A stretch of DNA of 64,000 nt from Lepisosteus oculatus. Its lineage: Eukaryota; Chordata; Actinopteri; Semionotiformes; Lepisosteidae. The translations under genes and the position numbers were made by a program. Below, in pieces: positions 15,404 to 37,100 of this stretch. The notes under the pieces are model-generated. The model saw nothing but the letters and a program-made list of their open reading frames with translations, was not told the DNA's origin and did no database searches. The first letter of the stretch is position 1. Every line of letters begins with the position of its first letter. The stretch lies in contig NW_027168352.1 in the NCBI RefSeq assembly GCF_040954835.1, positions 676,635 to 740,634 on the forward strand. The letters run 5' to 3'.

Positions 15404-15490
15404 CTGGAAACGAGGACACAAGACAGAGGTCAGGTCCACAGAGCTCACTCAATCACTACAGCAAGCAGAGACCTCTTGGCCATCAGGACT

Positions 15491-15714: not shown

Positions 15715-15782
15715 TGTGGGGCACCGGGCCCACCACAGGGCGGCCGGTCCAGTCTCGCGGAAGGCGACCGGGTCAGACTTAC

Positions 15783-15851
15783 GGAAAAGCACCGGGACTT
15801 GGGCAGGGACCTCTCCCGCTGCCAGTCCGGGTTCGGCCTGACCGGTGTGAC
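15783..15851 (-). CDS. Possible 69-bp exon, copy 1 only
   Basis: Minus strand: acceptor GGCGTCTTCACAG, 23 open codons (VTPVRPNPDWQRERSLPK then SRCFS), and a consensus donor GTAAGT. It lies just past the point where copy 2 is truncated, so the second gene copy would lack it. The codon phase relative to other exons is not established. Confidence 0.25.
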
Positions 15852-15941
15852 CTGTGAAGACGCCAAACAGCCCATCTCCGAGACAGCTCTGACCACATAG
15901 CCCAGCCCAGTCGTGTCGAGACTAGGGGCCTTGGGCAGTCT

Positions 15942-16382
15942 TGACAGTGTGTCCAGTGAGAGTGTGGACAGGTGAGTGTGTACAGTGTGTCCAGTGAGAG
16001 TCTGGACAGGTGAGTGTGTACAGTGTGTCCAGTGAGAGTCTGGACAGGTGAGTCAGACCAGTGTGTCCAGTAAGAGTCTGGACAGGTGAGTCTCTACAGT
16101 GTGTCCAGTGAGAGTCTGGACAGGTGAGTGTGTACAGTGTGTCCAGTAAGAGTCTGGACAGGTGAGTCTCTACAGTGTGTCCAGTGAGAGTCTGGACAGG
16201 TGAGTGTGTACAGTGTGTCCAGTAAGAGTCTGGACAGGTGAGTCTCTAAAGTGTCTCCAGTGAGAGTCTGGACAGGTGAGTGTGTACAGTGTGTCCAGTA
16301 AGAGTCTGGACAGGTGAGTGTGTACAATGAGTCCAGTAAGAGTCTGGACAGGTGAGTCTCTACAGTGTGTCCAGGAAGAGTG
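15942..16382. repeat. 38-bp splice-donor-like minisatellite, second array, copy 1 only
   Basis: About 11 units of the same 38-bp family as 14955-15290, again with repeated CAGGTGAGT. It is separated from the first array by 650 bp and has no counterpart in copy 2, which is cut earlier. Confidence 0.9.
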
Positions 16383-16548
16383 TGGGACGTTCAGAGGCAA
16401 TCTGTGCACTCAGAAGGTCATAATGGACCTGCAGCTTGGTTTTCCTCGGACCCGCGACCCTGTCTCTTGAGCCAAGGCGTGTCCTCAGTCAAGATCACCA
16501 CTGGAAGTGTCTCTCCTTGTCTGGAGGTGTTACCGTGAGACCTGGTCT
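16383..16548. other. Spacer, no gene seen
   Basis: Unique-looking sequence between the second 38-bp array and a retroposon tail. Nothing recognised. Confidence 0.4.
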
Positions 16549-16620
16549 GTCAAGCGCTTTGCGCTGCTATGTGTGTGAAAGGTGCTCTATCAGTGAAGTT
16601 TATTATTATTATTATTATAA
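16549..16620 (+). repeat. Retroposon 3' tail with (ATT)n
   Basis: CAAGCGCTTTGCGCTGCTAT, then GTGAAAGGTGCTCTATCAG and GTTTATTATTATTATTATTA. This is the usual 3' end of CR1/L2-type LINEs and the SINEs that share their tails. Only the tail is evident. Confidence 0.6.
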
Positions 16621-16835
16621 TACAGCGAGCGCTGCTGGGGGCGGAGAGGCCAGTCGGAGGAGGGCTGGACGCTGGACGCTGGACGGCGGGCGGGAGGGGT
16701 GGACTTACGACGCCTCGCCGGGCCCGGGTCCTGCTGCGACCGCGCACGGCCGTGCGGCATCTCTGTCGGTCCATCGTCCTGCCGAGACAAGAAGAGTCAC
16801 AGAGGGGAGGGGGCGGAGCCACACAGCTGGGTGGC

Positions 16836-17105
16836 TTGTTCCCCACCCCCGCCCCCCTCTGTGTACAGAAGAGCCTCCTGTCATGACTGGAGGAGCTCAC
16901 CCAGCTGTGTCCTGAGAGAAGCCAGGGTATCAGCTTTGTTCCACACCCCCGCCACTCTCTGTGTACAGTAGACCCTCCTGTCCTGACTGGAGGAGCTCAC
17001 CCAGCTGTGTCTGGAGAGAAGCCAGGGTATCGGCTTCAACCACAGGGCTGGGCAGCTTGTTCCCCACCCCCACCACTCTCTGTGTAGAGGTGCACCTCCT
17101 CTCAA
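16836..17105. repeat. Two tandem fragments of an interspersed repeat, copy 1 only
   Basis: CCTCCTG(T)C(A/C)TGACTGGAGG, AGCTCACCCAGCTGTGTC, AGAGAAGCCAGGGTATC and CCGCCACTCTCTGTGTA occur twice in a row, about 108 bp apart. Shorter pieces lie at 8313-8388 and 10205-10425, and the 49-bp minisatellite unit contains part of it in reverse complement. Confidence 0.65.
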
Positions 17106-17339
17106 TATCTTTTTACAGCAAGATCACACCCATAAGAGTGGAGTAACAGGGAAAAAAAACAACTTATTTCTCAACTTATTTTATTTCTCGACAGCGGCAT
17201 TTTTTAACTGACTTACCGATTCACGGGGATACTTAAGGGCGAAACTGAAGCTGAAACTATTATTTGATTGAAGTTGAAGTAACCCGCGAATCTTTTTTGG
17301 AATTAACACGTGTTTAGAAAGCGATATATAATCCTTTCC

Positions 17340-17520
17340 TCCTCCTCTCTCTTCACTCCTCTGAGCTCACGGGGCTCCGGCGCCGCCCCCCGCTAGAATC
17401 CGCCGCTCTGTGACGTCAGGCGGCTCATTGTGACGCCCCCGTGACGTCGCCCCCGACGCGCTCACGGCTCGGCCGCGAAAAACAAAAATGGCCGACATTT
17501 TTCGCGGATGTTGTTTTTTT
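17340..17520. promoter_or_regulatory. CpG-rich promoter-like segment
   Basis: A GC- and CpG-dense stretch. It holds a perfect CRE palindrome TGACGTCA at 17411-17418, a half-matching TGACGTCG at 17442-17449, and AAAATGGCC at 17485-17493 (YY1-type, followed by a partial inverted copy GACATTTT). A GATATATAA string lies just upstream at about 17322. It is upstream of the minus-strand candidate exons, so it may be their promoter; a bidirectional or plus-strand role is equally open. Absent from copy 2. Confidence 0.4.
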
Positions 17521-18069
17521 TTAGGTGGACATTTTATTTTTCCAACTCTCGGCGGCCAGCCGGGTGTCCCTGTACGAACCCGGTAGTCGCCACCCCGGAC
17601 AAGCAGGGGAAACGGGTCCAGCTGTTTCTGGCCCAAGGGTTACAAAAGCTGCATTTGAATTTAAAGACAAAATCACGTCGAGGGCGCATTCAGCACCCCC
17701 ACGTCCAACACGGGTTTCCGTGGGGTGGGGTTCAGTGAAATTAGCACCCCCCCGACCCCCAAGTCAAAGAAAGACCAACCTCCACCCCCCTCTAGCGGCC
17801 AAGGGCGGAAATTTCGGGCCACGCCACGTCCAAAAAACACGGGTTCCCCCCCCCCTCCCCCTGTCCTGCGGGGAAAAGACACGGCATTTTCTTTTCCGAG
17901 CCCTGCGTGGGACCTCACGACCCCCCCCAAAAAAAACGGGCTTCGGAGACGAGGAAAACCAGGCACGTCGACCTCTCTACAACACCACCCGGCCGTTTCT
18001 GTTTCAAACCGTGGTAAAAAAATAAATACAATTTCGCCCCTCACCGACCGCCGCGCAAAAAAACACAAC
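17521..18069. other. C-rich sequence before copy 2, no gene seen
   Basis: Runs of C on the plus strand (for example 17747-17760, 17846-17862, 17922-17930) and no convincing gene or element. It forms the left flank of copy 2. Confidence 0.4.
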
Positions 18070-18423
18070 TTCACGCTACAGAAACGGCCTGTGTGAGGGG
18101 GGGCACGGGAAAAAAATAAAACCGTGTGCGTGTTTTCGGCAGAGTAAGCTCAGCGGGGAAACTCCCTGAATCTCAGGGTTGCTTCTTGAACCCCGAAAAC
18201 GACCTTTTTTCTCTCTCTCGTTTTCTTAGTGTCTGGGACGTTCACGAACTCCGCCGCGTCGGTGCGATTCCCAGCGGGACTTGAACATAACCCCCCCGTG
18301 GGGCCACAGCGCCCCCGTGTGGCCGAGAGGACCACCACCCTCAGGGCTGAGCTTTTACTGCCGTGTCCCGCTTTTACTCTGGCGATGAAGGAGGGAATCA
18401 AGGAGGAGAATTAATATTGTGAT

Positions 18424-18694
18424 CCACCAGTCCATCACAGGACACACACACACCCTGGACAGGACACCAGTCCTTCACAGGATACCAGTCCATCACAGGA
18501 CACACACACACCCTTGACAGGACACCAGTCCTTCACAGGATACAAGTCCATCACAGTACACACACACACCCTGGACAGGACACCAGTCCATCACAGGACA
18601 CACACACACTCACACACCCTGGACAGGACAGCAGTCCATCACAGGACACACACACTCTCACACACCCTGGACAGGACACCAGTCCATCACAGGA
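18424..18694. repeat. CA-rich minisatellite (copy 2)
   Basis: Counterpart of the array at 356-625 with almost the same sequence and unit number, inside the second segmental copy. Confidence 0.85.
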
Positions 18695-19009
18695 TGTTCA
18701 GTGCCTCTCTCTAATAAAGTAGAAACAAGACATTAAACTCCGTTCAAAACAGGAGAAATCACCAGGACACCATACACCTTGCTCAGGACGATGGGAGAAG
18801 ACCTGTACCTTCACGAGTCCGGGTTGTGAAAACTTCTTCTGGCAGTTCAAAACGTTTCGAAGGGACCACAGCGCAACCCTGTTTTCCATTTCTATCGTGT
18901 ATTATTATACAGTCATAAGTATCTGTACTGATCACAGAGTCCCCCTCTCACTGCCAGAACTGAAGCCCAGTGCAGCACGAATAATAATAATAATAATAAT
19001 TAATCCATC

Positions 19010-19358
19010 TGGACTCTCCACTCAGAGCTCTTCCCAGGTCAGGGGGATCCAGTGGGGAGGAGAGCAGAGGGATGTAGCCAGTTCAGAGAGGGGGGGTGAT
19101 TAGGAGGCCATGATGGGTCAAGACCAGGGGGGGAATCAGGCCAGGATACTGGGGTAACACCCCTACTCTTCTCAAGAAACACCCGGGATTGTTAACGAGC
19201 ACAGAGAGTCAGGACCTTGGTTTGACGTCTCATCCGAAGGACGGCGCCTGTTTACAGTCCAGTGTCCCCCGTCACTATACTGGGGCATCAAGACCCACAC
19301 AGACCGCAGGGTGAGAGCGCCCCCTGCTGGCCCCACTCACACCTCTCCCAGCAGCAAC
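19010..19358. repeat. Dispersed repeat with CTCF-like core (A, copy 2)
   Basis: Second-copy counterpart of 941-1290. Confidence 0.65.
19316..19332 (-). promoter_or_regulatory. CTCF-like core motif (A, copy 2)
   Basis: Identical core and orientation to 1248-1264, in the second segmental copy. Confidence 0.5.
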
Positions 19359-19416
19359 TTTGGGGGGGGGGGGGAGGGAAAAAACCAAAAGCTAAACAGA
19401 TTTTTTTAAAAAATTT

Positions 19417-19422
19417 TTTATT
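19417..19422 (-). terminator. AATAAA polyadenylation signal, minus strand (A, copy 2)
   Basis: Second-copy counterpart of 1346-1351. Confidence 0.4.
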
Positions 19423-19451
19423 GATGCTTAACAAAAGAACAAAAATTACAA

Positions 19452-19940
19452 GCTTCAGTCCAGACTGGGGTCTGGGGTCCCTCAGCTTCAGTCCAGTCCA
19501 GAATGGGGCCCCTCAGCTTCAGTCCAGTCCAGTCTGGGGCCCCTCAGCTCCAGTCCAACCTGGTGTCCCTCAGCTCCAGTGCAGTCCAGACTGGGGTCCC
19601 TCAGCTTCGGTCCAGCACAGACTGGGGTCCCTCAGCTTTGGTCCAGCACGGTCTGGGGTCCCTCAGCTTCAGTCCAGACTGGGGTCCCTCAGCTCCAGTC
19701 CAGTCCAGTCTGGTGTCTCTCAGCTCCAGTCCAGTCCAGTCTGGGGCCCCTCAGCTCCGGTGCAGTCCAGTCTGGTGTCTCTCAGCTCCGGTCCAGTCCA
19801 GTCTGGTGTCCCTAGGCTCCAGTCCAGTCCAGTCTGGTGTCCCTCAGCTCCTGTCCAGTCCAGTCTGGGGCCCCTCAGCTTCAGTGCAGTCCAGTCTGGC
19901 GTCCCTCAGCTCCAGTCCAGTCCAGTCTAGTCCAGTCCAG
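19452..19940. repeat. 31-bp minisatellite (A, copy 2)
   Basis: Second-copy counterpart of 1381-1869, with essentially the same number and order of unit variants. Confidence 0.9.
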
Positions 19941-20095
19941 ATCTTAGCTGGCACAGAACCAGGAAAGGAACCTGGAAAGAATATTGTTATTGCAGGTGTG
20001 AGGGACACAGACACAGACGTCACCATGACATCAAACAGCAAGAGGAGACTCCTCCTTGAATCACAGACACGACCGGGTGGCGCCCCCCTGTCTGC

Positions 20096-20263
20096 TCACC
20101 TGCACCTCCTCTTCCTCTTCTTGTCCTTCCCGGCAGCCTGCTCCTCCTCTCCCTCGCTCTTCCTCTCCTGACCCACGGTCTCCGCCGCCTCCATGGGCTC
20201 GTCGTGATCATCTGTCTCCACCGACACGCAGCTCAGGGAGTTTAAAAAGACGCACCAGCGATT
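20096..20263 (-). pseudogene. Orphan copy of terminal exon (A, copy 2)
   Basis: Second-copy counterpart of 2025-2192. The open frame and acceptor are kept, with the same NRWCVFLNSL start and KKRKRRCR end. The neighbouring exons are again missing. Confidence 0.45.
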
Positions 20264-20298
20264 CTGCAGCAGAGACAGGAGAGTCACATTAAGAGTCG

Positions 20299-20391
20299 GA
20301 CTGGACACTCCAGGACATGAACACTGCACTGAGAGAGAGAGAGGGGTTCATACAGACACACTGACTGGACACTGACTGGACACTGGACAGG
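20299..20391. repeat. 62-bp minisatellite remnant (A, copy 2)
   Basis: Same family as 2229-2380 with about one unit fewer. This explains part of the offset change between the segmental copies. Confidence 0.8.
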
Positions 20392-20593
20392 AGTAAAGAG
20401 AGGATCAGAGCATTACCCACCTTATTTTTCTTCTGTCTCACAGGAGGTGGTGATTGGACCTCCTCCAGCTGGAGTCCGAGGAGGGAGAGAGGGGGCAGGA
20501 GAGGGACAGCACAGGGAGAGAAAGAGAGAGACAGGTGAGTCAAGTGTCCCAAGAGTACAGAGACTCTGCTGAAATCACACTCGCAGTGAGTGA

Positions 20594-21140
20594 CACCGAC
20601 ACTAACCAGCCTCAGGACAGCACTGCTAGAGCATCACAACCCAGACTCAACCACATCACAGCACAGATCAAACAGCAATATCTCACACACTGGGACACAC
20701 ACACACAAACACAACATAAACTGGAATGCTACAGAACCTTAAACAGACAATACACACTAGCTGAATATTTGACCAAAATAAAAAATAACAAACAGAAACA
20801 GACCCTGACGAAGAACAGGCTCAGTGACCACAACCTGGTCATAGAAACTGGGCGACACAGGCAGACCTGGCTGCCCAGAGAGGACAGGCTGTGCTCCCAC
20901 TGCCAGCAGGGAGAAATAGAGACAGAGGTGCACTTCCTACTGCACTGTGACAGATACTCTGGGATTAGAGAAACATTCTTCCCGAAATTCAGTAATCTAA
21001 TCCCAGAGTTCCCACACCTGCCAGAATCACAACGGGTCCCAATCCTACTGGGAGAGGGAGGAGGGAACTCAGTTGATCTGGCAGCCCAGTATGTGATCTC
21101 CTGTCACAGCCTGAGGAACAGTGAGTCTGTCTCCCAATAA
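20594..21140 (+). mobile_element. Non-LTR retrotransposon 3' end, truncated (copy 2)
   Basis: Counterpart of 2584-3130, still open to its stop. Visible changes are TKNRLS for TKYRLS and CSHCQQG for CSHCQRG. The zinc ligands (about 20892-20948) are kept. Confidence 0.65.
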
Positions 21141-21211
21141 TGCTCCAGCCGCCTACAGTATATGTCAATATTTTATAATATGTGTTTGTTGTAAATGTCT
21201 GTAACATGTCT

Positions 21212-22664
21212 GCTTTACGCAGAGAGTGGCGGGGGTTGGATGTCAAGGCCTGACGATACCGCATTACGCAGAGAGTGGAGGGGTGGGATGTCAGGGCCCG
21301 ACGACACTGCTTTATGCAGAGAATGGAGGGGTGGGTGTCAGGGCCATACGACACTTCTTTATTCAGAGAGTGGAGGGGGTGGGATGTCAGGGCTAGATGA
21401 CACTGCTTTACACAGAGAGTGGAGAGGTGGGTGTCAAGGCTATACGACAGTGCTTTACACAGAGAGTGGTGGGGGTGGGATGTCAGGGCCATATGACACT
21501 GCTTTACACAGAGAGTGGCGGGGCTAGGATGTCAGGGCCATATGACACTGCTTTACACAGAGAGTGGTGGGGGTGGGATGTCAGGGCTTGACGACACTGC
21601 TTTATGCAGAGAGTGGAGGGGTGGGATGTCAGGGCTATACGACAGTGCTTTCGGCAGAGAGTGGTGGGGGTGTGATGTCAGGGCCATACGACACTTCTTT
21701 ACGCAGGGAGTGGCAGGGGTGGGATGTCAGGGCCTGACGATACTACTTTACACAGTTAGTGGTGGGGGTGGGATGTCAGGGCCATACGACACTTCTTTAC
21801 GCAGAGAGTGGCAGGGCTTGACGACACTGCTTTATGCAAAAAATGGAGGGGTGGGTGTCAGGGCTATATGACAGTGCTTTCCGCAGAGAGTGGTGGGGGT
21901 GTGATGTCAGGGCCATACAGCAGTGCTTTACACAGAGAGTGATGGGGGTGTGATGTCAGGGCCATATGACACTGCTTTACACAGAGAGTGGCGGGGGTGG
22001 GATATCAGGGCCTGACAACACAGCTTAACGCAGAGTGTGGAGGGGTGGGTGTCAGGGTTATACGGCAGTGCTTTACGCAGAGAGTGGTGGGGGTGTGATG
22101 TCAGGGCCATACGACAGTGCTTTACACAGAGAGTGGCGGGGGAGGGATGTCAGGGCTTGACAACACTGCTTTATGTAGAGAGTGGAGGGGAGGGTTTCAG
22201 AGCCATAAGACACTGCTTTATGCAGAGAGTGGAGGGATTGGTGTCAGGGCCATATGACACTACTTTACACAGAGAGTGGCGGGAGTGGGATGTCAGGCCC
22301 TGACGATACTACTTTACGTAGACAGTGGCGGGGGTGGGATGTCAGGGCCTGACGACACTGCTTTATTCAGAGTGGAGGGGTGGGTGTCAGGGCTATACGA
22401 CAGTGCTTAATGCAGAGAGTGGAGGGTTGGGTGTCAGGGCTATATGACAGTGCTTTCCGCAGAGAGTGGTGGGGGTGTGATGTCAGGGCCATACGACACT
22501 TCTTTACGCAGGGAGTGGCAGGGGTGGGATGTCAGGGCCTGACGATACTTATTTACGCAGAGAGTGGCAGGGGTGGGATGTCAGGGCCTGACGACACTGC
22601 TTTATGCAGAGAATGGAGGGGTGGGTGTCAGGGCCATACGACACTTCTTTATTCAGAGAGTGGA
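21212..22664. repeat. 49-bp minisatellite (copy 2)
   Basis: Counterpart of 3202-4654 with the same length and order and a handful of substitutions. Confidence 0.9.
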
Positions 22665-22878
22665 GATCTAGACAAAGGGGGCAACTCTTAGTCGTATGGG
22701 CTTAGTCACACATCGCAGCGATTAAAAAAACAAAAGAAACATATTATGTCTGTTACTAACGACTTTTTTTTCCTACATTGAAAGTCTCTTTCCCGGGTGA
22801 TTTTCTAGCGCGACTGGGGCTCTTCATTTCTCCTCGGTGTCTCATCGCGGGCGGATTTGAAACAGACCACAGAAGGTG

Positions 22879-25534
22879 GTCACACACTATATTATTATTG
22901 AGAGACAGGCTCACTGTCTGTACCTCAGGCTGGGACAGGAGATCCCACACTGTATTATTATTATTGAGAGACAGGCTTACTCTCTGTTCCTCAAGCTGAG
23001 ACAGGACATCACATACTGTATTATTAATGATTGACAGGCTCACTGTTCCTCAGGCTGGGACAGGAGATCACACACTGTATTATTATTATTGAGAGACAAG
23101 CTCACTGTCTGTTCCTCAGGCTGGGACAGAGGATCACACACTGTATTATTATTATTTAGAGACAGGCTCACTGTCTGTTCCTCAGAGTTGGACAGGAGAT
23201 CCCACACTGAATTATTATTATAGAGAGACAGGCTCACTGTATGTTCCCCAGGCTGGGTCAGGAGCTCACACAGTATTATTATAATTATTGAGAGACAGTC
23301 TCACTGTCTGTTCCTCAGTCTGGGACAGGAGATCACACACTGTATTATTATTATTGAGAGACAGGCTCACTGTCTGTTCCCCAGGCTGGGACAGGACATC
23401 CCACACTGTATTATTATAATTATTTAGAGACAGACTCACTGTCTTTTCCTCGGTCTGGGACAGATGGTCACACACTGTATTATTATTGAGACAGGCTCAC
23501 TGTCTGTTCCTCAATCTGGGACAGTAGATCACATTGTATTATTATTATTAATATTATTGAGAGTCTGGCACACTGTTCCCCAGGCTGGGACAGGAGATCC
23601 CACACTGTATTATTATTATTTTGAGACAGGCTCACTGTTTGTTCCTCAGGCTGGGACAGGAGATCCCACACTGAATTATTATTATTTTGAGACAGGCTCA
23701 CTGTTTGTTCCTCAGGCTGGGACAGGAGATCCCACACTGAATTATTATTATTGAGAGACAGGCTTACTCTCTGTTCCTCAGGCGGAGACAGGACATCACA
23801 TACTGTATTATTATTGATTGACAGGCTTATTGTTCCTCAGGCTGGGACAGGAGATCAGACACTGTATTATTATTATAGTGAGACAGGTTCACTGTATGTT
23901 CCCCAGGCTGGGACAGGAGGTCATACATTATATTATTATTAAAGAGAGACAGGCTCACAGTATGTTCCACAAACTGAGACAGGAATTCACACTGTATTAT
24001 TATTATTGAAAGACAGACTCACTGTCTTTTCCTCAGTCTGGGACAGTTGGTCACATACTGTATTATTATTATTGAGAGACAGGCTCACTGTTCCTCATGC
24101 TGGGACAGTAGATCACACTGTATTATTATTACTGAGAGTCTGGCTCACTGTTCCCCAGGCTGGGACAGGAGATCACACACTGTATTATTATTAGTGAGAG
24201 ACAGGCTTACTCTCTGTTCCACAGGCTGAGACAGGACATCACATATTGTATTATTATTATTGACAGATAGGCTGACTGTCTGTTCCTCAGGCTGGGACAG
24301 AGGATCACACACTGTATTATTATTGAGAGACAGGCTCACTCTCTGTTCCTCAGGCTGGGACAGGAGATCACACATTGGCTTGTTATTGAGAGGCAGGCTC
24401 ACTGTCTGTTCCTCAGGCTGGGACAGGAGATCACATGCTGTATTATTATTATTGAGAGACAGGCTCATTGTCTGTTTCTCAGGCTGGGACAGGAGATCAC
24501 ACACTGTATTATTATTATTGACAGATAGGCTGACTGTCTGTTCCTCAGAATGGGACAAGAGATCACACACTGTATTACTATTATTGACAGATAGGCTCAC
24601 TGTGTCTTCGCTTGGGCTTGAACAGAAGATCACACACTGGATTATTATTACTGAGAGAGGCTCACAGTCTGTTCCTCAGGCTGGGACAGGAAATCACACA
24701 CTCTATTATTATTATTGAGAGACAGGCTCACTGTCTGTTCCTCAGGCTAGGGTAGGATATCACACACTGTATTATTAGTATTGAGAGAAAGCCTCAGTGT
24801 TCCCCAGGCTGGGACAGGAGATCACACATTGTATTTTTATTATTGAGAGACAGGCTCACTGTTCCTCAGGCTGGGACAGGAGTTCAAACTGTATTATTAT
24901 TATTATTGAGAGACAAGCTCACTGTTCCCCAGGCTGGGACAGGAGGCGCAATTATTATTGAGAGACAGGCTCACTGTCTGTTCCTCAGGCTGGGACAGGA
25001 GATCACAAACTGTATTATTATTATAGAGAGACCTGCTCTTTCCTGACTGTTCCTTAGGCTGGGACAGCAGATCATAATCTGCTTTATTATTATTGAGAGA
25101 CTGGCTCACTCCTGTCTGTTCCTCAGGTTGGGAAAGGAGATCAGACACTGTATTATTATTATTGAGAGACGGGCTCAGTGCTCCCCAGGCTGAGACAGGA
25201 GATCACACACTGTATTATTATTATTGAGTATCTGGTTCACTGTTCCCCAGGCTGGGACAGGAAATCACACACTGTATTATTATTATTGAGAGACAGGCTC
25301 ACTGTCTGTTCCTCAGGCTGGGGCAGGATATCACACACTGTATTATTCGTATTGAGAGACAGCCTCAGTGTTCCCCAGGCTGGGACAGGAGATCACACAC
25401 TGTATTATTATTGAGAGACAGGTTCACTGTCTGTTCCTCTGGCTGGGGCAGGGAATCACACACTGTATTATTAGGATTATTAAGAGACAGGCTCGCTGTC
25501 TGCTCCACAGGCTGGGACAGGATATCACACACTG
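22879..25534. repeat. 66-bp minisatellite derived from retrotransposon 3' end (copy 2)
   Basis: Counterpart of 4869-7521. One ATT triplet more near 23350 accounts for the 3-bp offset change. Confidence 0.9.
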
Positions 25535-25992
25535 TTGTAGTGTTCTCTCACGAGGCACCAGTTCTGTAGGGGTTTGGGCATTTACTGGGACAATTATTTT
25601 TGTGGCAGTAAATCACACAATTGATTCTTTTAATGGTCTTAGAATCCAACCATGCGACATAACTCAAACAACGCACACACAGGTACTAATACACGAGGAT
25701 ACATTTGTTAATATATAGAATATGCATTCAAACCTAACAGATCTTATCGTCTGGGTTATCAGAATACAAAAGATATAAATTCATTCAGTTACAAAGAGTT
25801 ACACATATCAAGAGGACATAAGTTCGGTATATCATTCATTTAGACCATTTCGTAATTGAACTTGTTTACAACTTCTACATGAGATACTTAAAACAAGTAC
25901 ATAACCCTTAGGAATTAAATTGATATCAACTGGTTGGGAGCAGTAATGCAATAAGGTTGAATACTCACTGCCGGTGGGTCCCTTTTCACACC

Positions 25993-26065
25993 GTTTCCGT
26001 AGTGCAGCGGTTATCACGTTCGCCTCACACGCGAAAAATCCCCAGTTTGAAACCGGACGGGAACA
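25993..26065 (+). tRNA. tRNA-Val (CAC), degraded (copy 2)
   Basis: Counterpart of 7980-8052, anticodon at 26026-26028. It has one further G-to-A change in the T stem (CCCAG for CCCGG), so the T arm is weaker than in copy 1. Probably a pseudogene or weak gene. The T-run downstream is kept. Confidence 0.65.
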
Positions 26066-26325
26066 GCCTCCTCTTTTTGCACGCTCCTGTACTTCACAGA
26101 GGTCTTGAGCGACCGGTCATTTGTTCCCAATGTGTTTCCGGTGCCTTCATGCACTCTTGTACCAAACGCACGTTCCTTCTGTACGCGGAGCCGATCATTT
26201 GCAATTGGGCTGTGCCGACAGACCAGGACGAGCTCTGTCGGCTCAAAAGCAGCGCAGGACCTGCAAGAACAAAAGAAAGATTAGCATCCAGCGGGGGCTT
26301 CTTAGTGAGCCCAAGATCTCATCAA

Positions 26326-26401
26326 GAATCGGCTCCAGCAACAGGGCTGGGCGCACTGTTCCATTCGCCGACCACTCTCGGTGTAAACAAGTCCCTCCTG
26401 G
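26326..26401. repeat. Fragment of interspersed repeat family (copy 2)
   Basis: Counterpart of 8313-8388 with a couple of substitutions. Confidence 0.55.
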
Positions 26402-26642
26402 TCTCTGCTTGAATTGCACTTTCCTGCGTTTGCTTTGGTGTAACTGGGTTCCCATGCATGGGCGAATGTGAAGAAGATCCTAAGTAAGTCATTGAAGAAA
26501 ACCGAGAAGAGGTCGGAGTGGCCTCTGTCGTTCATCAACGATCCAGTCAGGCAGTACTCCTCTGCAAAGCGCAGTTCGTTCACGTCGATTGACTTTTTTT
26601 TGCCTTCATTTGTGCATGTAGTAAAAGCAGACGCCCCTATTC

Positions 26643-26714
26643 TACCGTGAACCCGACTCGAACCGGGGTTGTGGCGGCCACAACGCAAAGTACTGACCAC
26701 TATACGATCACGGA
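26643..26714 (-). tRNA. tRNA-His (GTG), likely pseudogene (copy 2)
   Basis: Identical counterpart of 8630-8701, anticodon at 26679-26681. The same lost 1-72 pair shows that the decay predates the segmental duplication. Confidence 0.65.
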
Positions 26715-26913
26715 GAGATACCGAGACACACGTGGCAGGGCGGAAAAGGCTGTGCTCTCTTCGTGTGACATAATTCGGAAAAGTCCTGACGTTGCATTTC
26801 AACTGAGCCCCAGTATACATCGACCCTTCGACACTCTGAGTGACACCTCTTGCGTGTTTTCTCATATTTATGTAGTTTGCTTGCATGATGCCCGGAACAG
26901 CGGGGTTGTTCGC

Positions 26914-26985
26914 TCCCATATGGTCGAGCAGTTAGGATTCCTGGTTTTCACCCACGTGGCCTGGGTTCAACTCCCGGTATAGGAA
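26914..26985 (+). tRNA. tRNA-Glu (TTC), damaged (copy 2)
   Basis: Counterpart of 8901-8972, anticodon at 26947-26949. Two changes hit functional sites: GCGGTTA became GCAGTTA in the D loop (A box), and TATGGGA became TATAGGA, breaking one acceptor pair. It is likely less functional than copy 1. Confidence 0.7.
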
Positions 26986-27437
26986 CGTGTCAGTTTTGAA
27001 TCCTGCTTTCCAAAAGATTAGCACCGTGTACGAAGGAGCCGCATTAAAACTACTCGAACGTGCAAAACGTGCGAGAAGAGGGGGCGCTTGTTTCCAACCG
27101 AAACTTCTCGCGTGTGAGACGAGCTGACCATCGCTGCAGGAGGTGGGAGGGTTACTCTGGTAGACAGGGCTGACCTTCGGCAATAGGATTTATACTCTCC
27201 AAGATGATATTTGCACTTTCTGGAGAGGCGATTTTCTCCACTTCAGTAGCCCGATTTCGTCGATTGCGTGGAGAGGGCTGTAGAATGTGGCGCCGCCTTT
27301 CCTGCTCCGTCCATGACAGGCGTGCTGGTCTCTGGAGAGAGAGCACGGTCCATCAGCGCACTCCAATAAAGGCACTGGAAGCAGCTGAATCGCATTGACG
27401 AAGCTCAGCGCTGGGCCGCTGGGCACCTCTTACCACC

Positions 27438-27510
27438 GTTTCCGTAGTGTAATGGTTATCACGTTTGCCTCACACGCAAAAGGTCCCCGGTTCGAAACTG
27501 GGCGGAAGCA
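27438..27510 (+). tRNA. tRNA-Val (CAC), intact (copy 2)
   Basis: A 73-nt cloverleaf with all stems paired. Acceptor GTTTCCG/CGGAAGC has one T-G wobble. Anticodon stem TTTGC/GCAAA is perfect around CTCACAC (anticodon CAC, 27471-27473). T stem CCCGG/CTGGG encloses a canonical TTCGAAA loop. A TTTT terminator follows at 27517-27520. This is the best tRNA-Val candidate in the window and is expected to be functional. Confidence 0.88.
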
Positions 27511-27655
27511 GACTTCTTTTGTCGCCACGCACAAAAGGGGATTGGGGATTCGCCTAGCACTGTGATCGAACAGACCCACTCACCTCTTAGTGTGGCGGGA
27601 TCTGCACAGTGCATGTCACAGCGCCTGCTGTCACTTCAATGCGCGTCCTGATGTA

Positions 27656-27724
27656 CCCCGGTCTCCCGCGTGACAGGTGGGGACAGGTGACAGGTCCACG
27701 TGACAGGTCCTATACTAACGAGGA
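27656..27724 (-). pseudogene. tRNA-Asp remnant, first unit (copy 2)
   Basis: Same broken tRNA-Asp as at 9651-9706, with an extra short direct repeat (ACGTGACAGGTCC) in the middle. Confidence 0.65.
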
Positions 27725-28018
27725 AGACATCGCTCTCTCCGACCCCCGGCATCGTGTACCCACCCACCGTGCTGGAAGCCGACTCGTGCTGTGATTCCTT
27801 TACGGAGCAGAAATGACAACCGAGGAGCCGAGAGATCATTTCAGCATTTCGCGTCTGAACGGAAAACACAAACGACCAACTCGGAATGACTTGCCTTTGA
27901 CGCTTATCAAAGCGTTCTTTGTGGATCGAACAGACCCACTCACCTCTTAGTGTGGCGGGATCTGCACAGTGCATGTCACAGCGCATCCTGCTTTCACTTC
28001 AATGCGCGTCCTGATGTA

Positions 28019-28074
28019 CCCCGGTCTCCCGCGTGACAGGTGGGGACAGGTGACAGGTCCACTACTAACGAGGA
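28019..28074 (-). pseudogene. tRNA-Asp remnant, second unit (copy 2)
   Basis: Same as 9651-9706; the third occurrence in the window. Confidence 0.65.
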
Positions 28075-28486
28075 AGACATCGCTCTCTCCGACCCCCGGC
28101 ATCGTGTCCCGACCCACCGTGCTGGAAGCCGACTCGTGCTGTGATTCCTTTACGGAGCAGAAATGACAACCGAGGAGCCGAGAGATCATTTCAGCATTTC
28201 GCGTCTGAACGGAAAACACAAACGACCAACTCGGAATGACTTGCCTTTGACGCTTATCAAAGCGTTCTTTGTGGATCGAACAGACCCACTCACCTCTTAG
28301 TGTGGCGGGATCTGCACAGTGCATGTCGCAGCGCTCCCTGCTTTCACTTCAATGTGCTTCCTGATGTCGAGTCGTGTGCCGTGCGGAGGCTCTGAAAGCG
28401 AGAGCAATGAAAAGGTGCACGACGCTGTGTTAGAAAACAGAGAAGTGAAAGGCAGTCCTTTCTCTAAGGAGGTGAAAGAAAAGCTA

Positions 28487-28558
28487 CTCCCCGTCGGGGA
28501 ATCGAACCCCGGTCTCCCGCGTGACAGGCGGGGATACTTGCCACTATACTAACGAGGA
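28487..28558 (-). tRNA. tRNA-Asp (GTC), intact (copy 2)
   Basis: Counterpart of 10117-10188 with the anticodon stem fully paired (CCCGC/GCGGG). Anticodon GTC at 28523-28525, canonical T arm. It is expected to be functional. Confidence 0.88.
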
Positions 28559-28564
28559 AGACAT

Positions 28565-28800
28565 CGCACGCTCCGACCCACGGCATCGTGTCCAGACCCA
28601 GCCCTGTCCAGCCCTGTGGTTGAAGCCGATACCCTGGCTTCTCTCAAGACACAGCTGGGTGAGTTCCTCCAGTCAGGACAGGGGGGCTCTACTGTACACA
28701 GAGGGTGGCGGGGGTGTGGAACAACTCCTTTGTTCGGGGCCTTGGGGCATTCTTGTTGTGAAAGGCGCTATATAAAAAAACGGAATTGAAATTGAATCTT
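28565..28800. repeat. Interspersed repeat with 3' tail (copy 2)
   Basis: Counterpart of 10205-10425 with a short duplication (CCAGCCCTGT twice) near its left end. Confidence 0.6.
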
Positions 28801-29766
28801 ACAGGTTTGGGTTTTTCAGAGATCTTGTCAGAGATCTTGTCTGACATGCCCGTTTCAAAAACGTAACGACACTCCTCACGTTCGAGCGCCGCCGGTCTGT
28901 GACGTAACGTATCCTTACACAACCATGATGGTTTCATCATGGACAGCACGAAAGCCCGAAAAGTGGTTGACGTTTTAGTTTGGCAACGCCACGATGGATC
29001 CCAGTTTTTTTTTTATTTTGGAGGCCAAAGAGGACAAAAAAGGAAACGTCCGGAGTCTTGTAGCGTGAGAAGGGTTTAAATTTCGACTTAAGGAGTTGGC
29101 CATCGTTATATTTCGCGAGGTATAATACGGGGGGAAAAAGAACATTTGTATTTATCAACCTACTAGTAATACTGGGTGGATGTCACGTTCCCCAAAGTTC
29201 AGTGCCTCTCTCTAATAAAGTAGAAACGCGACATTAAACTCCGTTCGAAACGGGAGAATTCACCAGGACACGATACAACTGACGTCCGGAAAAAAAAGAA
29301 AAAAAGAACTCCTATTTCCATTTGTAATGACCCGTCGTGTTTTTCCCGGTGTACGCTTCTCTTTCGGAGACCGTTTCTCTCTGGTGTTGTTTTGCTGTTG
29401 GAATAAATGCCGAGGTGACCCGTCTGCGTGTTCTCTCCAGCGGGTCGTTTCCTCCACCGCAGGGGCTGGTCGAACCGGGGTCTCCCAATCATCACAGAAG
29501 TGTGTGTCGTTTTGGGTGGTGGTGGTGGGGGGATGCATCGGGGATACTGCGCCCCGAGGGGGTGACCTCTCACATTGCTCCGGACGAAGGGAGAAGACTT
29601 GTACCTTCCCGAGTCCGGGTTGTGAAAACTACAGCGCTACCCTGTTTTCCATTTGTATCGTGTATTATTAGACAGTCATAAGTATCTGTACTGATCACAG
29701 AGTCCCCCTCTCACTGCCAGGACTGAAGCCCAGTGCAGCACGAATAACAATAATAATTAATAAGTC

Positions 29767-30186
29767 TGGACCCTCCACTCAGAGCTCCTCCCAGGTCAGG
29801 GTGATCCCCTCCAGCCCCCCCAGTGTGCAGCCCCCACCTGGATGATGCTCCAGTCCGTTCTGCACACAGCAGCTCTCAGTGGGGAGGAGAGCAGAGGGAT
29901 GGAGCCAGTTCAGAGAGGGGGGGTGATTAGGAGGCCATGATAGGTCAAGACCAGGGGGGGAATCAGGCCAGGACACTGGGGTAACACCCCTACTCTTCTC
30001 CAGAGACACCCCGGGATTGTTAATGAGCACAGAGAGTCAGGACCTCGGTTTGACGTCTCATCCGAAGGACAGCGCCTGTTTACAGTCCAGTGTCCCCCTT
30101 CACTATACTGGGGCATCAGGACCCACACAGACCGCAGGGTGAGAGCGCCCCCTGCTGGCCCCACTCACACCTCTCCCAGCAGCAAC
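29767..30186. repeat. Dispersed repeat with CTCF-like core (B, copy 2)
   Basis: Second-copy counterpart of 11382-11802. Confidence 0.65.
30144..30160 (-). promoter_or_regulatory. CTCF-like core motif (B, copy 2)
   Basis: Identical core and orientation to 11760-11776, in the second segmental copy. Confidence 0.5.
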
Positions 30187-30243
30187 CCTGGGGGGGGGGG
30201 GAGGGAAAAAACCAAAAGCTAAACAGATTTTTTTTAAAAACAT

Positions 30244-30249
30244 TTTATT
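30244..30249 (-). terminator. AATAAA polyadenylation signal, minus strand (B, copy 2)
   Basis: Second-copy counterpart of 11861-11866. Confidence 0.45.
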
Positions 30250-30263
30250 GATGCTTTACAAAA

Positions 30264-30905
30264 GTCCAGTCCAGTCTGGTGTCCCTCAGCTCCAGTCCAA
30301 TCCAGTCTGGTATCCCTCAGCTCCAGTCCAGTCCAGTCTGGGGCCCCTCGGCTCCAGTCAAGTCCAGTCTGGGGCCCCTCAGCTTTAGTCCAGTCTGGTG
30401 TCCCTCAGCTCCAGTGCAGTCCAGACTGGGGTCCCTCAGCTTCGGTCCAGCACAGTCTCGGGTCCCTCAGGTTCGGTCCAGCACAGACTGGGGTCCCTCA
30501 GCTCCAGTCCAGTCCAGTCTGGTGTCCCTCAGCTTCGGTCCAGTCCAGACTGGGGTCCCTCAGCTTCAGTCCAGCACAGTCTGGGGTCCCTCAGCTTCGG
30601 TCCAGCACAGTCTGGTGTCCCTCAGCTTTGGCCCACCACAGACTGGGGTCCCTCAGCTTCGGTCCAGCACAAACTGGGGTCCCTCAGCTTCGGTCCAGCA
30701 CAGTCTGGGGTCCCTCAGCTTCAGTCCAGACTGGGGTCCCTCAGCTTCGGTCCAGCACAGTCTGGGGTCCCTCAGCTCCAGTCCAGTCCAGTCTGGTGTC
30801 TCTCAGCTCCGGTCCAGTCCAGGCTATTGTCCCTAGGCTCCAGTCCAGTCCAGTCTGGGGTCCCTCAGCTCCGGTCCACTCCAGTCCAGTCTAGTCCAGT
30901 CCAGA
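30264..30905. repeat. 31-bp minisatellite (B, copy 2)
   Basis: Second-copy counterpart of 11881-12525. Unit order is slightly rearranged near the right end compared with copy 1. Confidence 0.9.
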
Positions 30906-31059
30906 TCTTAGCAGGCACAGAACCAGGAAAGGAACCTGGAAAGAAAATTGTTATTGCAGTTGTGAGGGACAAAGACACAGACGTCACCATGACATCAAAC
31001 AGCAAGAGGAGACTCCTCCTTGAATCACAGACACTACCGGGCGGCGCCCCCCTGTCTGC

Positions 31060-31227
31060 TCACCTGCACCTCCTCTTCCTCTTCTTGTCCTTCCCGGCAG
31101 CCTGCTCCTCCTCTCCCTCGCTCTTCCTCTCCTGAGCTACGGTCTCCGCCGCCTCCATCGGCTCGTCCTGATCTTCTGTCTCCACTGACACGCAGCTCAG
31201 GGACTTCAAAAAGACGCAACAGCGCTT
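31060..31227 (-). CDS. Candidate terminal exon of unknown gene (copy 2)
   Basis: Second-copy counterpart of 12680-12847 with the same frame, acceptor and stop. One visible change is AQERK in place of ARERK. The gene copy it belongs to lacks its 5' part, because the segment is cut at 34152. Confidence 0.4.
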   Translation of the reverse strand, partial: KRCCVFLKSLSCVSVETEDQDEPMEAAETVAQERKSEGEEEQAAGKDKKRKRRCR

Positions 31228-31264
31228 CTGAAGCAGAGACAGGAGAGTCACGTTAAGAGTCGGA

Positions 31265-31652
31265 CTGGACACTCCAGGACATGAACACTGCACTGAGAGA
31301 GAGGGGTTCATACAAACACACTGACTAGACACTCCAGGACATGAACACTGCACTGAGAGAGAGAGAGGGGTTCATACAGACACACTGACTGGACACTCCA
31401 GTACATGAACACTGCACTGAGAGAGAGAGAGGTTCATACAAACACACTGACTAGACACTCCAGTACATGAACACTGCACTGAGAGAGAGAGGGGTTCATA
31501 CAGACACACTGACTGGACACTCCAGTACATGAACACTGCACTGAGAGAGAGAGGGGTTCACACAGACACCCTGACTGACTGGACACTCCAGTACATGAAC
31601 ACTGCACAGAGAGAGAGAGGTGTTCATACAGACACCCTGACTGGACACTGGA
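31265..31652. repeat. 62-bp minisatellite (B, copy 2)
   Basis: About six units. The order of unit variants differs from 12886-13285, showing turnover since the segmental duplication. Confidence 0.9.
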
Positions 31653-31889
31653 CAGGAGTAAAGAGAGGATCAGAGCATTACCCACCTTCTTTTTCTTCTG
31701 TCTCACAGGAGGTGGTGATTGGACCTCCTCCAGCTGGAGTCCGAGGAGGGAGAGAGAGGGCAGGAGAGGGACAGCACAGGGAGAGAAAGAGAGAGACAGG
31801 TGAGTCAAGTGTCCCAAGAGCACAGAGACTCTGCTGAGATCACACTCGCAGTGAGTGAGCCTGGGTGTAGCCCACTAATACTGACCCTC

Positions 31890-32924
31890 TGGACACCACA
31901 GGACAGAGAGGAGGAGGAGAGAGACACACTGCCTGGACACCACAGGACAGAGAGGAGGAGGAGAGAGACACAGACAGACAGGGCTGAAAGAGAGAGAGAC
32001 AGAGAGGCAGGGACAGACAGACAGCAGGCCGAGAGAGAGACACTGAGATCGAGGGACAGACAGACTGAGAGACAGGGCTGAAAGAGAGAGAGACAGAGAG
32101 GCAGGGACAGACAGCAGGCCGAGAGAGACACTGACCGACAGGGCTGAAAGAGAGAGAGACACTGAGACCCAGGGACAGACAAGACGGCGAAACTCCACCA
32201 CAGACAGGACAGGAGGCAGGGTGGGACCAGCACTGACCTCCTTCCTCTCTCCTGCCAGAGGAACTGTCTCCACCTCCTCTTCCTCCTGCAAGTCAAGAGA
32301 CAGGCTGAGAGAGAGACGGGCTGGCGGGACATCGGCGAACAGAGCTGAAGGCAGAGAGCCGGTGAGACAGGCCCAGCTGGGACAACGCAGGACAGACAGA
32401 GAGACAGACAGGGAGACACACGAAGAGAAACAGGGAGAGAGACCCAGCTGGGACAATGCAGGACAGACAGAGAGCAGGGAGACACACGGAGAGACACAGG
32501 GAGACAGGCCCAGCTGGGACAACGCAGGACAGACAGAGAGCAGGGAGACACAGAGAGACACAGGGAGAGAGACCCAGCTGGGACAACGCAGGACAGACAG
32601 AGAGCAGGGAGACACACGGAGAGACACAGGGAGACAGGCCCAGCTGGGACAAAGCAGGACAGACAGAGAGCAGGGAGACATGGAAAGAGAGAGGGAGAGA
32701 GACAGGGAGAGAGGGACAGACACAGAGACTCAGACAGAAGGACAGAAAGACAGAAAGAGAGAAGTGCAGATGGACAGATGACAGAGACAGAGAAAAGGAC
32801 ATATGGACTGATGGACAGAAAGACAGAAAAAGACAGAAAGACAGATGGACAGATGGACTGAAGGATAGACGGACAGAAGGACAGATGGGCGGACAGACAG
32901 ATGGACGGACAGACGGACAGACTC
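31890..32924. repeat. GACAGA-rich low-complexity intron region (copy 2)
   Basis: Counterpart of 13535-14494, with one additional CCCAGCTGGGACAA unit and other small length changes. Confidence 0.85.
32238..32285 (-). CDS. Candidate 48-bp acidic exon of unknown gene (copy 2)
   Basis: Identical second-copy counterpart of 13878-13925, with the same splice sites and frame. Confidence 0.4.
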
Positions 32925-32936
32925 TGCCCCACTTGC

Positions 32937-33332
32937 CTCGTCAGACATCTCAGCCTCTCTCCTTGCCCTCCGCACCGGGGAGCCCCAGGCGGGGCCTGGC
33001 GGGGCCGGGCAGGCGATGGGGGGCAGGACGGGTGGGGGCAGGGGCAGGGGCACCGCCCCGGGCAGCAGGGGGGGCTCGAGGGGCATGGCGGGGAGGAAGG
33101 GGGGGCGGCGGGGCGGGGCGGGCAGGGGCCTGAGGGGGCCGGAGGGGGGGGGTGGGGGCGGGGGCGGGGAGCGGAGGGGGCTCTCGGGTGAGGAGGGGGG
33201 GGACACCGAGCGGAACGAGCCGGGCGAGCCCGAGCGGGACGAGCCGGGCGACTCCGGGAGCTCCAGCTGCAGCTCGGCCGCCCTCTCCAGCTTCTGGACG
33301 AGCTCGGGGAAGCACGAAGACACCACGGGATT
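32937..33332 (-). CDS. Candidate 396-bp proline-rich exon of unknown gene (copy 2)
   Basis: Counterpart of 14505-14894. It is 6 bp longer because the proline run has eight rather than six residues, so the frame is preserved. Other differences include ELPESPG versus ELPGSPG and PIAC versus PIAR. The same acceptor and GC donor are kept. Confidence 0.45.
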
Positions 33333-33394
33333 CTGTCCAGCGGGGAAAGGGGGAGACACAACGCAGGGGGGATGAGGAGCAGAGACTACGCCTG

Positions 33395-33732
33395 GACAGG
33401 TGAGTGTGTACAGTGTGTCCAGTAAGAGTCTGGACAGGTGAGTCTCTACAGTGTGTCCAGTGAGAGTGTGGACAGGTGAGTGTGTACAGTGTGTCCAGTG
33501 AGAGTGTGGACATGTGAGAGTGGACAGTGTGTCCAGTGAGTGTGGACAGGTGAGTGTGGACAGTGTGTCCAGTGAGAGTGTGGACAGGTGAGAGTGCACA
33601 GTGTGTCCAGTGAGTGTGGACAGTGTGTCCAGTGAGAGTCTGGACAGGTGAGTGTGTCCAGTGTGTCCAGTAAGAGTCTGGACAGGCGAGTGTGTCCAGT
33701 GTGTCCAGTAAGAGTGTGGACAGGTGTGTCCA
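33395..33732. repeat. 38-bp minisatellite with splice-donor-like core (copy 2)
   Basis: Counterpart of 14955-15290, nearly identical. Confidence 0.9.
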
Positions 33733-33808
33733 ACAGTAAGAAGCTGTCTTACCCTGTAACCCAGCTCAGGGGTGTTAGGGGGTGCTCTGTCTCCTCCCCA
33801 GATCTCAC

Positions 33809-33845
33809 CTTCAGCTCTGGTGAAATGCCGGACCACTAGGAGACG
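33809..33845 (-). CDS. Possible 37-bp exon (copy 2)
   Basis: Identical counterpart of 15367-15403, only about 300 bp from the point where copy 2 is cut by telomeric repeats. The same phase problem applies. Confidence 0.25.
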
Positions 33846-33932
33846 CTGGAAACGAGGACACAAGACAGAGGTCAGGTCCACAGAGCTCACTCAATCACTA
33901 CAGCAAGCAGAGACCTCTTGGCCATCAGGACT

Positions 33933-34152
33933 GTGGGGGTCAGAGTGGGGAGCTGTAGGGTATCGGGAGTTTAGGGGTCAGTGTGGGGAGCTGTAGGGTA
34001 TCGGGAGTTTAGGGGTCAGTGTGTGGGGAGCTGTAGGGTATCGGGAGTTTAGGGGTCAGTGTGGGGAGATGTAGGGTATCAGGAGTTTAGGGGTAAGTGT
34101 GGGGAGCTGTAGGGTATCGGGAGTTTAGGGGTCAGTGTGGGGAGCTGTAGGG
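33933..34152. repeat. 38-bp G-rich minisatellite, cut by telomeric repeats (copy 2)
   Basis: Same units as 15491-15714. The last unit stops after AGCTGTAGGG and is continued directly by TTAGGG repeats, where copy 1 has AGCTGTAGGGTAGATG. Confidence 0.9.
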
Positions 34153-34198
34153 TTAGGGTTAGGGTTAGGGTTAGGGTTAGGGTTAGGGTTAGGGTTAG
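34148..34198 (+). repeat. Telomeric repeat tract (TTAGGG)7
   Basis: TAGGG, then seven perfect TTAGGG units (34153-34194), then TTAG. The G-rich strand runs left to right, as at the right-hand end of a chromosome. The tract starts inside the 38-bp minisatellite and ends inside a satellite monomer (TTAG meets CAGTTGTCTG), with no other sequence between. It is internal, because about 30 kb of satellite follow. Confidence 0.95.
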
Positions 34199-37100
34199 TT
34201 GTCTGAAAAAACGCGTTTATTTCGGGCTGAAAAACACGTTTTGAAAAGTGTGATGTTACTGCCCCATAACTTACATGGGGTTGACCAAACTTGCAGAAAC
34301 ATGTTTATTTCTGCTGAAAAACACGTTTTGACCCTTTCTGCACACTGGGGTTAAGGGCTGAGTGTGTTGGCACTTCTGAGCCTTGCTGTTACAAGTATAT
34401 TCAGCTGTCTGAAAAAACGTGTTTATTTCGGGCTGAAAAACACGTTTTGAAAAGTGTGATGTTACTGCCTCATAACTTACATGGGGTTGTCCAAACTTGC
34501 AGAAACATGTTTATTTCTGCTGAAAAACACGTTTTGACCCTTTCTGCACACTGGGGTTAAGGGCTGAGTGTGTTGGCACTTCTGAGCCTTGCTGTTACAA
34601 GTATATTCAGCTGTCTGAAAAAACGTGTTTATTTCGGGCTGAAAAACACGTTTTGAAAAGTGTGATGTTACTGCCCCATAACTTACATGGGGTTGACCAA
34701 ACTTGCAGAAACATGTTTATTTCTGCTGAAAAACACGTTTTGACACTTTCTGTACACTGGGGTTAAGGGCTGAGTGTGTGGGCTCTTCTGAGCCTTGCTG
34801 TTACAAGGAGATTCATTTGCCTGAAAAAACGCGTTTATTTCGGGCTGAAAAACACGTTTTGAAAAGTGTGATGTTACTGCCCCATAACTTACATGGGGTT
34901 GACCAAACTTGCAGAAACATGTTTATTTCTGCTGAAAAACACGTTTTGACACTTTCTGTACACTGGGGTTAAGGGCTGAGTGTGTGGGCTCTTCTGAGCC
35001 TTGCTGTTACAAGGAGATTCAGTTGCCTGAAAAAACGCGTTTATTTCGGGCTGAAAAACACGTTTTGAAAAGTGTGATGTTACTGCCCCATAACTTACAT
35101 GGGGTTGACCAAACTTGCAGAAACATGTTTATTTCTGCTGAAAAACACGTTTTGACCCTTTCTGCACACTGGGGTTAAGGGCTGAGTGTGTTGGCTCTTC
35201 TGAGCCTTGCTGTTACAAGTAGATTCAGCTGTCTGAAAAAACGTGTTTATTTCGGGCTGAAAAACACGTTTTGAAAAGTGTGATGTTACTGCCCCATAAC
35301 TTACATGGGGTTGACCAAACTTGCAGAAACATGTTTATTTCTGCTGAAAAACACGTTTTGACACTTTCTGTACACTGGGGTTAAGGGCTGAGTGCGTGGG
35401 CTCTTCTGAGCCTTGCTGTTACAAGGAGATTCAGTTGTCTGAAAAAACGCGTTTATTTCGGGCTGAAAAACACGTTTTGAAAAGTGTGATGTTACTGCCC
35501 CATAACTTACATGGGGTTGACCAAACTTGCAGAAACATGTTTATTTCTGCTGAAAAACACGTTTTGACCCTTTCTGCACACTGGGGTTAAGGGCTGAGTG
35601 TGTTGGCACTTCTGAGCCTTGCTGTTACAAGTATATTCAGCTGTCTGAAAAAACGTGTTTATTTCGGGCTGAAAAACACGTTTTGAAAAGTGTGATGTTA
35701 CTGCCTCATAACTTACATGGGGTTGACCAAACTTGCAGAAACATGTTTATTTCTGCTGAAAAACACGTTTTGACCCTTTCTGCACACTGGGGTTAAGGGC
35801 TGAGTGTGTTGGCACTTCTGAGCCTTGCTGTTACAAGTATATTCAGCTGTCTGAAAAAACGTGTTTATTTCGGGCTGAAAAACACGTTTTGAAAAGTGTG
35901 ATGTTACTGCCCCATAACTTACATGGGGTTGACCAAACTTGCAGAAACATGTTTATTTCTGCTGAAAAACACGTTTTGACACTTTCTGTACACTGGGGTT
36001 AAGGGCTGAGTGTGTGGGCTCTTCTGAGCCTTGCTGTTACAAGGAGATTCATTTGCCTGAAAAAACGCGTTTATTTCGGGCTGAAAAACACGTTTTGAAA
36101 AGTGTGATGTTACTGCCCCATAACTTACATGGGGTTGACCAAACTTACAGAAACATGTTTATTTCTGCTGAAAAACACGTTTTGACCCTTTCTGCACACT
36201 GGGGTTAAGGGCTGAGTGTGTTGGCTCTTCTGAGCCTTGCTGTTACAAGTAGATTCAGCTATCTGAAAAAACGTATTTCGGGCTGAAAAACACGTTTTGA
36301 AAAGTGTGATGTTACTGCCCCATAACTTACATGGGGTTGACCAAACTTGCAGAAACATGTTTATTTCAGCTGAAAAACACGTTTTGACACATTCTGTACA
36401 CTGGGGTTAAGGGCTGAGTGTGTGGGCTCTTCTGAGCCTTGCTGTTACAAGGAGATTCAGTTGTCTGAAAAAACGCGTTTATTTCGGGCTGAAAAACACG
36501 TTTTGAAAAGTGTGATGTTACTGCCCCATAACTTACATGGGGTTGACCAAACTTGCAGAAACATGTTTATTTCTGCTGAAAAACACGTTTTGACCCTTTC
36601 TGCACACTGGGGTTAAGGGCTGAGTGTGTTGGCACTTCTGAGCCTTGCTGTTACAAGTAGATTCAGCTGTCTGAAAAAACGTGTTTATTTCGGGCTGAAA
36701 AACACGTTTTGAAAAGTGTGATGTTACTGCCCCATAACTTACATGGGGTTGACCAAACTTGCAGAAACATGTTTATTTCTGCTGAAAAACACGTTTTGAC
36801 AATTTCTGCACACTGGGGTTAAGGGCTGAGTGTGTGGGCTCTTTTGAGCCTTGCTGTTACAAGGAGATTCAGTTGCCTGAAAAAACGCGTTTATTTCGGG
36901 CTGAAAAACACGTTTTGAAAAGTGTGATGTTACTGCCCCATAACTTACATGGGGTTGACCAAACTTGCAGAAACATGTTTATTTCTGCTGAAAAACACGT
37001 TTTGACACTTTCTGCACACTGGGGTTAAGGGTTGAGTGTGTGGGCACTTCTGAGCCTTGCTGTTACAAGTAGATTCAGTTGCCTGAAAAAACGCGTTTAT

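Follow-up and report, generated by a model that had tools for sequence, protein, structure and literature searches.

A short telomeric tract between a tandem segment and a 206-bp satellite in Lepisosteus oculatus: a possible repaired breakpoint

At one point in the genome of Lepisosteus oculatus, the last copy of a tandemly repeated segment gives way to seven perfect TTAGGG units, and these pass directly into an array of a 206-bp satellite. The preferred explanation, to which we would give roughly an even chance, is that this is a short interstitial telomeric tract marking a rearrangement breakpoint, where a broken end was extended by telomerase and then ligated to satellite DNA. The junction lies inside the window (the whole stretch of 64,000 nucleotides that was analysed), which occupies the final 64 kb of contig C732 (740,634 bp), the end of the window being the end of the contig. 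The tract is therefore internal in its present position, with 34.1 kb of window DNA to its left and 29.8 kb of satellite to its right. The features of the window are collected in Table 1.

Table 1. Features on either side of the telomeric junction, in window coordinates.
Feature	Position	Strand	Basis
Copy 1 of the ∼18-kb tandem segment, intact where copy 2 breaks off	1..18069	+	self-comparison
38-bp minisatellite of copy 1, followed by AGATGTGGGG as the unbroken continuation	15482..15711	+	TRF, end words, alignment
Copy 2 of the segment, without a counterpart of copy 1 positions 15712-18069	18070..34153	+	self-comparison, alignment
38-bp minisatellite of copy 2; its units repeatedly carry TAGGGT, the last of these being the seed	33924..34153	+	TRF
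Six-base seed TAGGGT, common to minisatellite and telomere repeat	34148..34153	+	sequence reading
Telomeric tract, (TTAGGG)7 then TTAG	34153..34198	+	sequence reading
AG common to tract and satellite; the satellite has TTCAGTTGTCTG or TTCAGCTGTCTG in its units	34197..34198	+	sequence reading
206-bp satellite array, to the contig end	34199..64000	+	TRF, contig extent, unit identity

Read directly from the window, the junction at the end of copy 2 is GGGGAGCTGTAGGGTTAGGGTTAGGG. Copies 1 and 2 share an identical run of 712 nt up to GAGCTGTAGGGT, ending at 15711 and 34153 respectively, and the very next base differs. In copy 2 there follow (TTAGGG)7 at 34153-34194, with all seven repeats perfect, and a last TTAG to 34198, after which the satellite starts at 34199 with TTGTCTGAAAAAACG, without a spacer or extra bases after the tract. 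TRF calls the same repeat at 34148-34198 (period 6, 8.5 copies, 100% match). When the TTAG/TTGTCTG join is set against the satellite's own TTCAGTTGTCTG, AG appears as an overlap of ∼2 bp. The first-pass annotation had described copy 2 as following copy 1, switching to seven TTAGGG units and then directly to the 206-bp satellite, and this reading agrees with it. The tract itself is the signal, since TTAGGG as a single word is no commoner in the window than chance would give (19 observed vs 26.8 expected). Matches to TTAGGGTTAGGG number six, all on the + strand and all within the tract, against a shuffle mean of 0.02.

The 17-mer TTAGGGTTAGTTGTCTG, which spans tract and satellite, has a single match in the 1,200,105,466-bp genome, at the window junction; this count concerns the exact tract-satellite join, at one point of the satellite unit, and the backwards control pattern also has one genome match, by chance. 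In its exact form the boundary is not one of many dispersed ones, the condition that the first-pass annotation had named as refuting its reading. An approximate junction search (up to 3 mismatches) returned 13,106 matches; the ∼100 listed are ordinary satellite variants, and the window's own exact match is not among them. Telomeric DNA as such is plentiful in the genome, with 8176 + 10253 overlapping (TTAGGG)5 matches, those listed all being on contig C1. The satellite consensus contains a near-telomeric word, GGGGTTAAGGG.

To the left of the junction, self-comparison aligns positions 1-2301 with 18070-20373 (99.4%), 2291-9997 with 20299-28017 (99.2%) and 9553-15711 with 27920-34153 (95.2%), the start of the window not being the natural start of a unit. 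A further copy (copy 0) is present in the DNA directly before the window (L010-L012), so that the segment earlier called duplicated is indeed repeated in tandem, but at least triplicated (copies 0, 1 and 2). At the switch point, which is the end of the minisatellite, copies 0 and 1 both read AGATGTGGGG, and the continuation in the alignment is AGATGTGGGGCACC; as had been proposed, copy 1 represents the unbroken locus, since it continues past the minisatellite in this way, as does copy 0. The same 38-bp minisatellite was read at eight loci on contig C14 (L001-L008), several of which overlap the same arrays and which come from a set in which 40 of 156 candidates were scored. At the minisatellite end these continue with AGATG, or with TGATG in L006. 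Because unbroken continuations are seen in copies 0 and 1 and at the C14 loci, the break in copy 2 falls on the last TAGGGT of its minisatellite. The earlier placement of the break in the minisatellite at TAGGGT is thus retained as to the motif found at the switch, but this point is the natural end of the minisatellite, not its middle. An empty counterpart lacking the repeats is present for the left side only, and these counterparts are paralogues, not an orthologue. The tract is not an insertion between the two halves of an older sequence, since on its right stands the 206-bp satellite in place of the rest of the segment. No pair of adjacent TTAGGG units occurs in copies 0 and 1, at the eight C14 loci, or in the C732 pieces outside the window (L009-L012, L014-L054). 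The C14 copy L006 reads GTAGGGTTGATG at the minisatellite end, from position 1543 on, one base nearer to the telomere repeat than the others. The listed minisatellite matches on C14 span 3.0 to 47.9 Mb of a contig of 60.0 Mb (vs 37.6 Mb for C13 and 34.3 Mb for C15), and both sampled ends of C14 are satellite.

On the + strand to the left of the junction, 34,136 positions were counted, of which 50 (0.15%) offer six or more nucleotides in register with the telomere repeat and 2.3% offer four, which makes a random break at such a seed unlikely. This test was chosen after the sequence had been seen, and the minisatellite is locally rich in such words: of 13 occurrences of TAGGGT left of the junction copy, 11 lie in the two minisatellites. 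A six-nucleotide match is less surprising within the minisatellite, because this is itself G-rich and telomere-like.

The satellite array to the right was called by TRF at 34200-64000 (144.8 copies, 96% match). Its units average 97.9% identity to the consensus, both figures being derived from 116 of 130 anchor intervals (the 14 dropped were double-length, with a mutated anchor). There is no decay at the edge, the first unit having 99.5% identity to the consensus and the first 15 ranging over 95.6-100%. The beginning of contig C732 carries this satellite too, equally oriented: it fills the first 10 kb and was present in 18 of the 20 samples taken, each of 400 bases. All 18 samples from 15 to 500 kb are satellite, those at 550 and 600 kb are not, and among 20 finer samples those at 503 and 506 kb are satellite while the 18 from 509 kb on are without a window match. 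These two like-oriented satellite blocks enclose an island of ∼202 kb (C732:508352-710832, with window 1-34198 as its right part), the last part of which is a tandem array of the ∼18-kb units. ARAGORN predicts ten tRNA genes in the window, five of which pass the Rfam gathering score, and types called in the array are Val, His, Glu, Val and Asp. Each of six further island pieces, picked for their tRNA-like look, has at least one tRNA gene, and L010 has two U1 matches and one 5S match. At the left edge of the island (C732:508,351) the satellite gives way at once to other DNA and no telomeric repeat intervenes, so that the telomeric scar is found at the right edge only; nine whole satellite units at the left edge have 95.2-100% identity. 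The undecayed edges of both arrays would suit a junction of fairly recent origin, or homogenisation that is still going on. That the island was inserted cleanly within a single satellite unit was considered and rejected, because the satellite breaks off at consensus position ∼74 on the left edge and resumes at ∼200 of 206 on the right. The rearrangement may be internal to one satellite block, since the same satellite occurs in the same orientation ∼202 kb leftward.

Elsewhere, the satellite family occurs inside contig C1 (52.18-52.35 Mb of 78.9 Mb, among the matches listed). Twenty contig starts were sampled, of which four are satellite (C14, C15, C17, C20), 13 are N, one is telomeric and two are other sequence; of 15 contig ends, two are satellite (C13, C14), five telomeric and eight other. 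In this sample, its inner position on C1 and its end positions on other contigs make the satellite a candidate for the centromere repeat. Inspection by eye showed another repeat family to be shared by the ends of C3, C6 and C9 and the start of C4 (L118, L121, L124, L058), while C10, C20 and C15 end in TTAAG or AAAGT repeats; given these other repeat families, the subtelomeres there differ from the window satellite. No paper on the 206-bp satellite or on the junction locus was recognised in a literature search.

A telomere capping the left-hand DNA would show its G strand as TTAGGG on the + strand, read rightward. This is how the tract is oriented, and the extended end is therefore that of the island, with the satellite as the partner. 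A plausible course would begin with a double-strand break in the end of the copy 2 minisatellite, or resection to it, exposing a 3' end ...GTAGGGT. Telomerase, the probable maker of the tract, would pair with TAGGGT and add about seven repeats. The extended end would then be ligated to a broken end of the 206-bp satellite with the ∼2 bp overlap, and the remainder of copy 2 would be lost. In this favoured course, repeat addition and joining would have been one repair event. The first-pass annotation had proposed telomerase healing followed by later joining or fusion. For healing there are the TAGGGT seed, the orientation, the unbroken paralogues and the lack of a spacer, but a life as a chromosome terminus does not follow from them; for joining there is the direct contact with satellite, but not a chromosome fusion, as a perfect tract of 46 bp in one orientation fits one-step telomerase-assisted end joining equally well. 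The earlier proposal is thus supported in part.

The closest known likeness is to the short interstitial telomeric sequences (s-ITS) left at double-strand-break repair. According to Nergadze et al. 2007 (PMC2246262), 8 of 47 insertions in mouse and 11 of 63 in rat had at least four in-register nucleotides, against an expectation of at most 0.39%, and the matches reached up to eight nucleotides. Among insertions that were informative, across four species, 67-80% had at least one in-register base, and flanking DNA had been deleted at 65 of 130 loci in rodents and 13 of 25 in primates. The features shared with these are the few perfect TTAGGG units, the in-register seed at the 3' end of the break, the comparison with an empty copy and the loss of flanking sequence. 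The loci of that paper are, however, insertions in pre-existing sequence, whereas at this junction unrelated satellite has taken the place of one flank. The junction therefore marks a rearrangement breakpoint, and an end exchange or deletion must be added to the s-ITS model. Chromosome healing, with its neotelomeres, shares the repeats at a broken end, the short telomere-like seed and the correct orientation, but the end is not at present terminal and its tract is only 46 bp. The ITS classes used for these comparisons come from a vertebrate survey (PMC8537989). TERC-ITS as characterised in it also have telomeric repeats at a break, but here minisatellite and satellite account for both flanks to the base. 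A flank derived from telomerase RNA was accordingly rejected, there being no spare bases on either side; this was judged by the absence of unassigned bases beside the tract. Fusion ITS likewise place telomeric DNA internally, but the tract has a single orientation and no head-to-head TTAGGG/CCCTAA array, and a head-to-head telomere fusion is excluded by all six TTAGGGTTAGGG matches lying on the + strand. A telomere that once capped the satellite, as at a mouse-like telocentric end, was also rejected, as it would read CCCTAA into the satellite where TTAGGG is seen. The tract resembles heterochromatic ITS in adjoining satellite in what may be pericentromeric heterochromatin, but its 46 bp form no extended block.

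Four other accounts of the junction have to be weighed. True chromosome healing would have given the island a neotelomere that later shortened to about seven repeats and joined a telomere-free satellite end. The same seed, orientation and perfect repeats would result, and the presence of satellite at the starts of C14, C15, C17 and C20 and the ends of C13 and C14 makes satellite near chromosome ends plausible. This sequence of events is nevertheless unlikely: it requires two events and near-complete telomere loss, lacks a head-to-head CCCTAA partner, and sits poorly with the same satellite in the same orientation beyond the other side of the island. A healed terminus with later fusion is thus possible but not required, as it needs an extra event that has no separate evidence. 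Joining by microhomology would mean that a piece of telomere, or of some other interstitial tract, was taken up or copied at TAGGGT without telomerase acting at the break. It could draw on overlaps of 6 nt on the left and 2 nt on the right and on the abundance of telomeric DNA noted above. Filler of this origin may be inserted either way round and is often accompanied by extra bases, but the tract has the one orientation expected of telomerase and no extra bases, and such an origin is distinctly improbable.

That the contig was mis-joined at repeats is suggested by its ending in satellite and by the place of C732 (740,634 bp) in the contig list, where its neighbours measure 39,287 and 38,740 bp, an odd position for its size. 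The window and the C732 pieces checked contain no N, however, and a tract of 46 bp, being far below long-read length, should not by itself cause a mis-join; an assembly artefact is considered quite unlikely. Growth by slippage would start from a minisatellite variant already reading TAGGGTTAGGG, with the satellite joining the end of the tract by chance. One-base steps toward TTAGGG do occur, since the C14 copy L006 has GAGCTGTAGGGTTGATG at the same point, but neither copies 0 and 1 nor the eight C14 loci (several of them overlapping) hold the two-unit run that slippage would lead one to look for, and a satellite breakpoint at the tract end would be a coincidence. The probability left to slippage is very slight.

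A telomerase-extended break joined to satellite, the reading preferred here, looks like a telomeric break scar of a known kind in an informative setting. The locus is a near-ideal single-locus record, with an unbroken paralogue 18 kb away, the 712-nt identity, a visible seed and the satellite as captured partner. It is conceivable, although a long shot, that the TAGGGT-bearing minisatellite, which has many copies on the large C14 and here adjoins a centromere-like satellite, is a recurrent break-and-heal site and that the satellite repeatedly captures telomerase-primed ends, cutting out or sealing gene-bearing islands in pericentromeric arrays. Gars are the sister lineage to teleosts, and if the minisatellite were such a repeated site, it would link telomere-like minisatellites, break repair and the growth of satellite blocks in the gar lineage.
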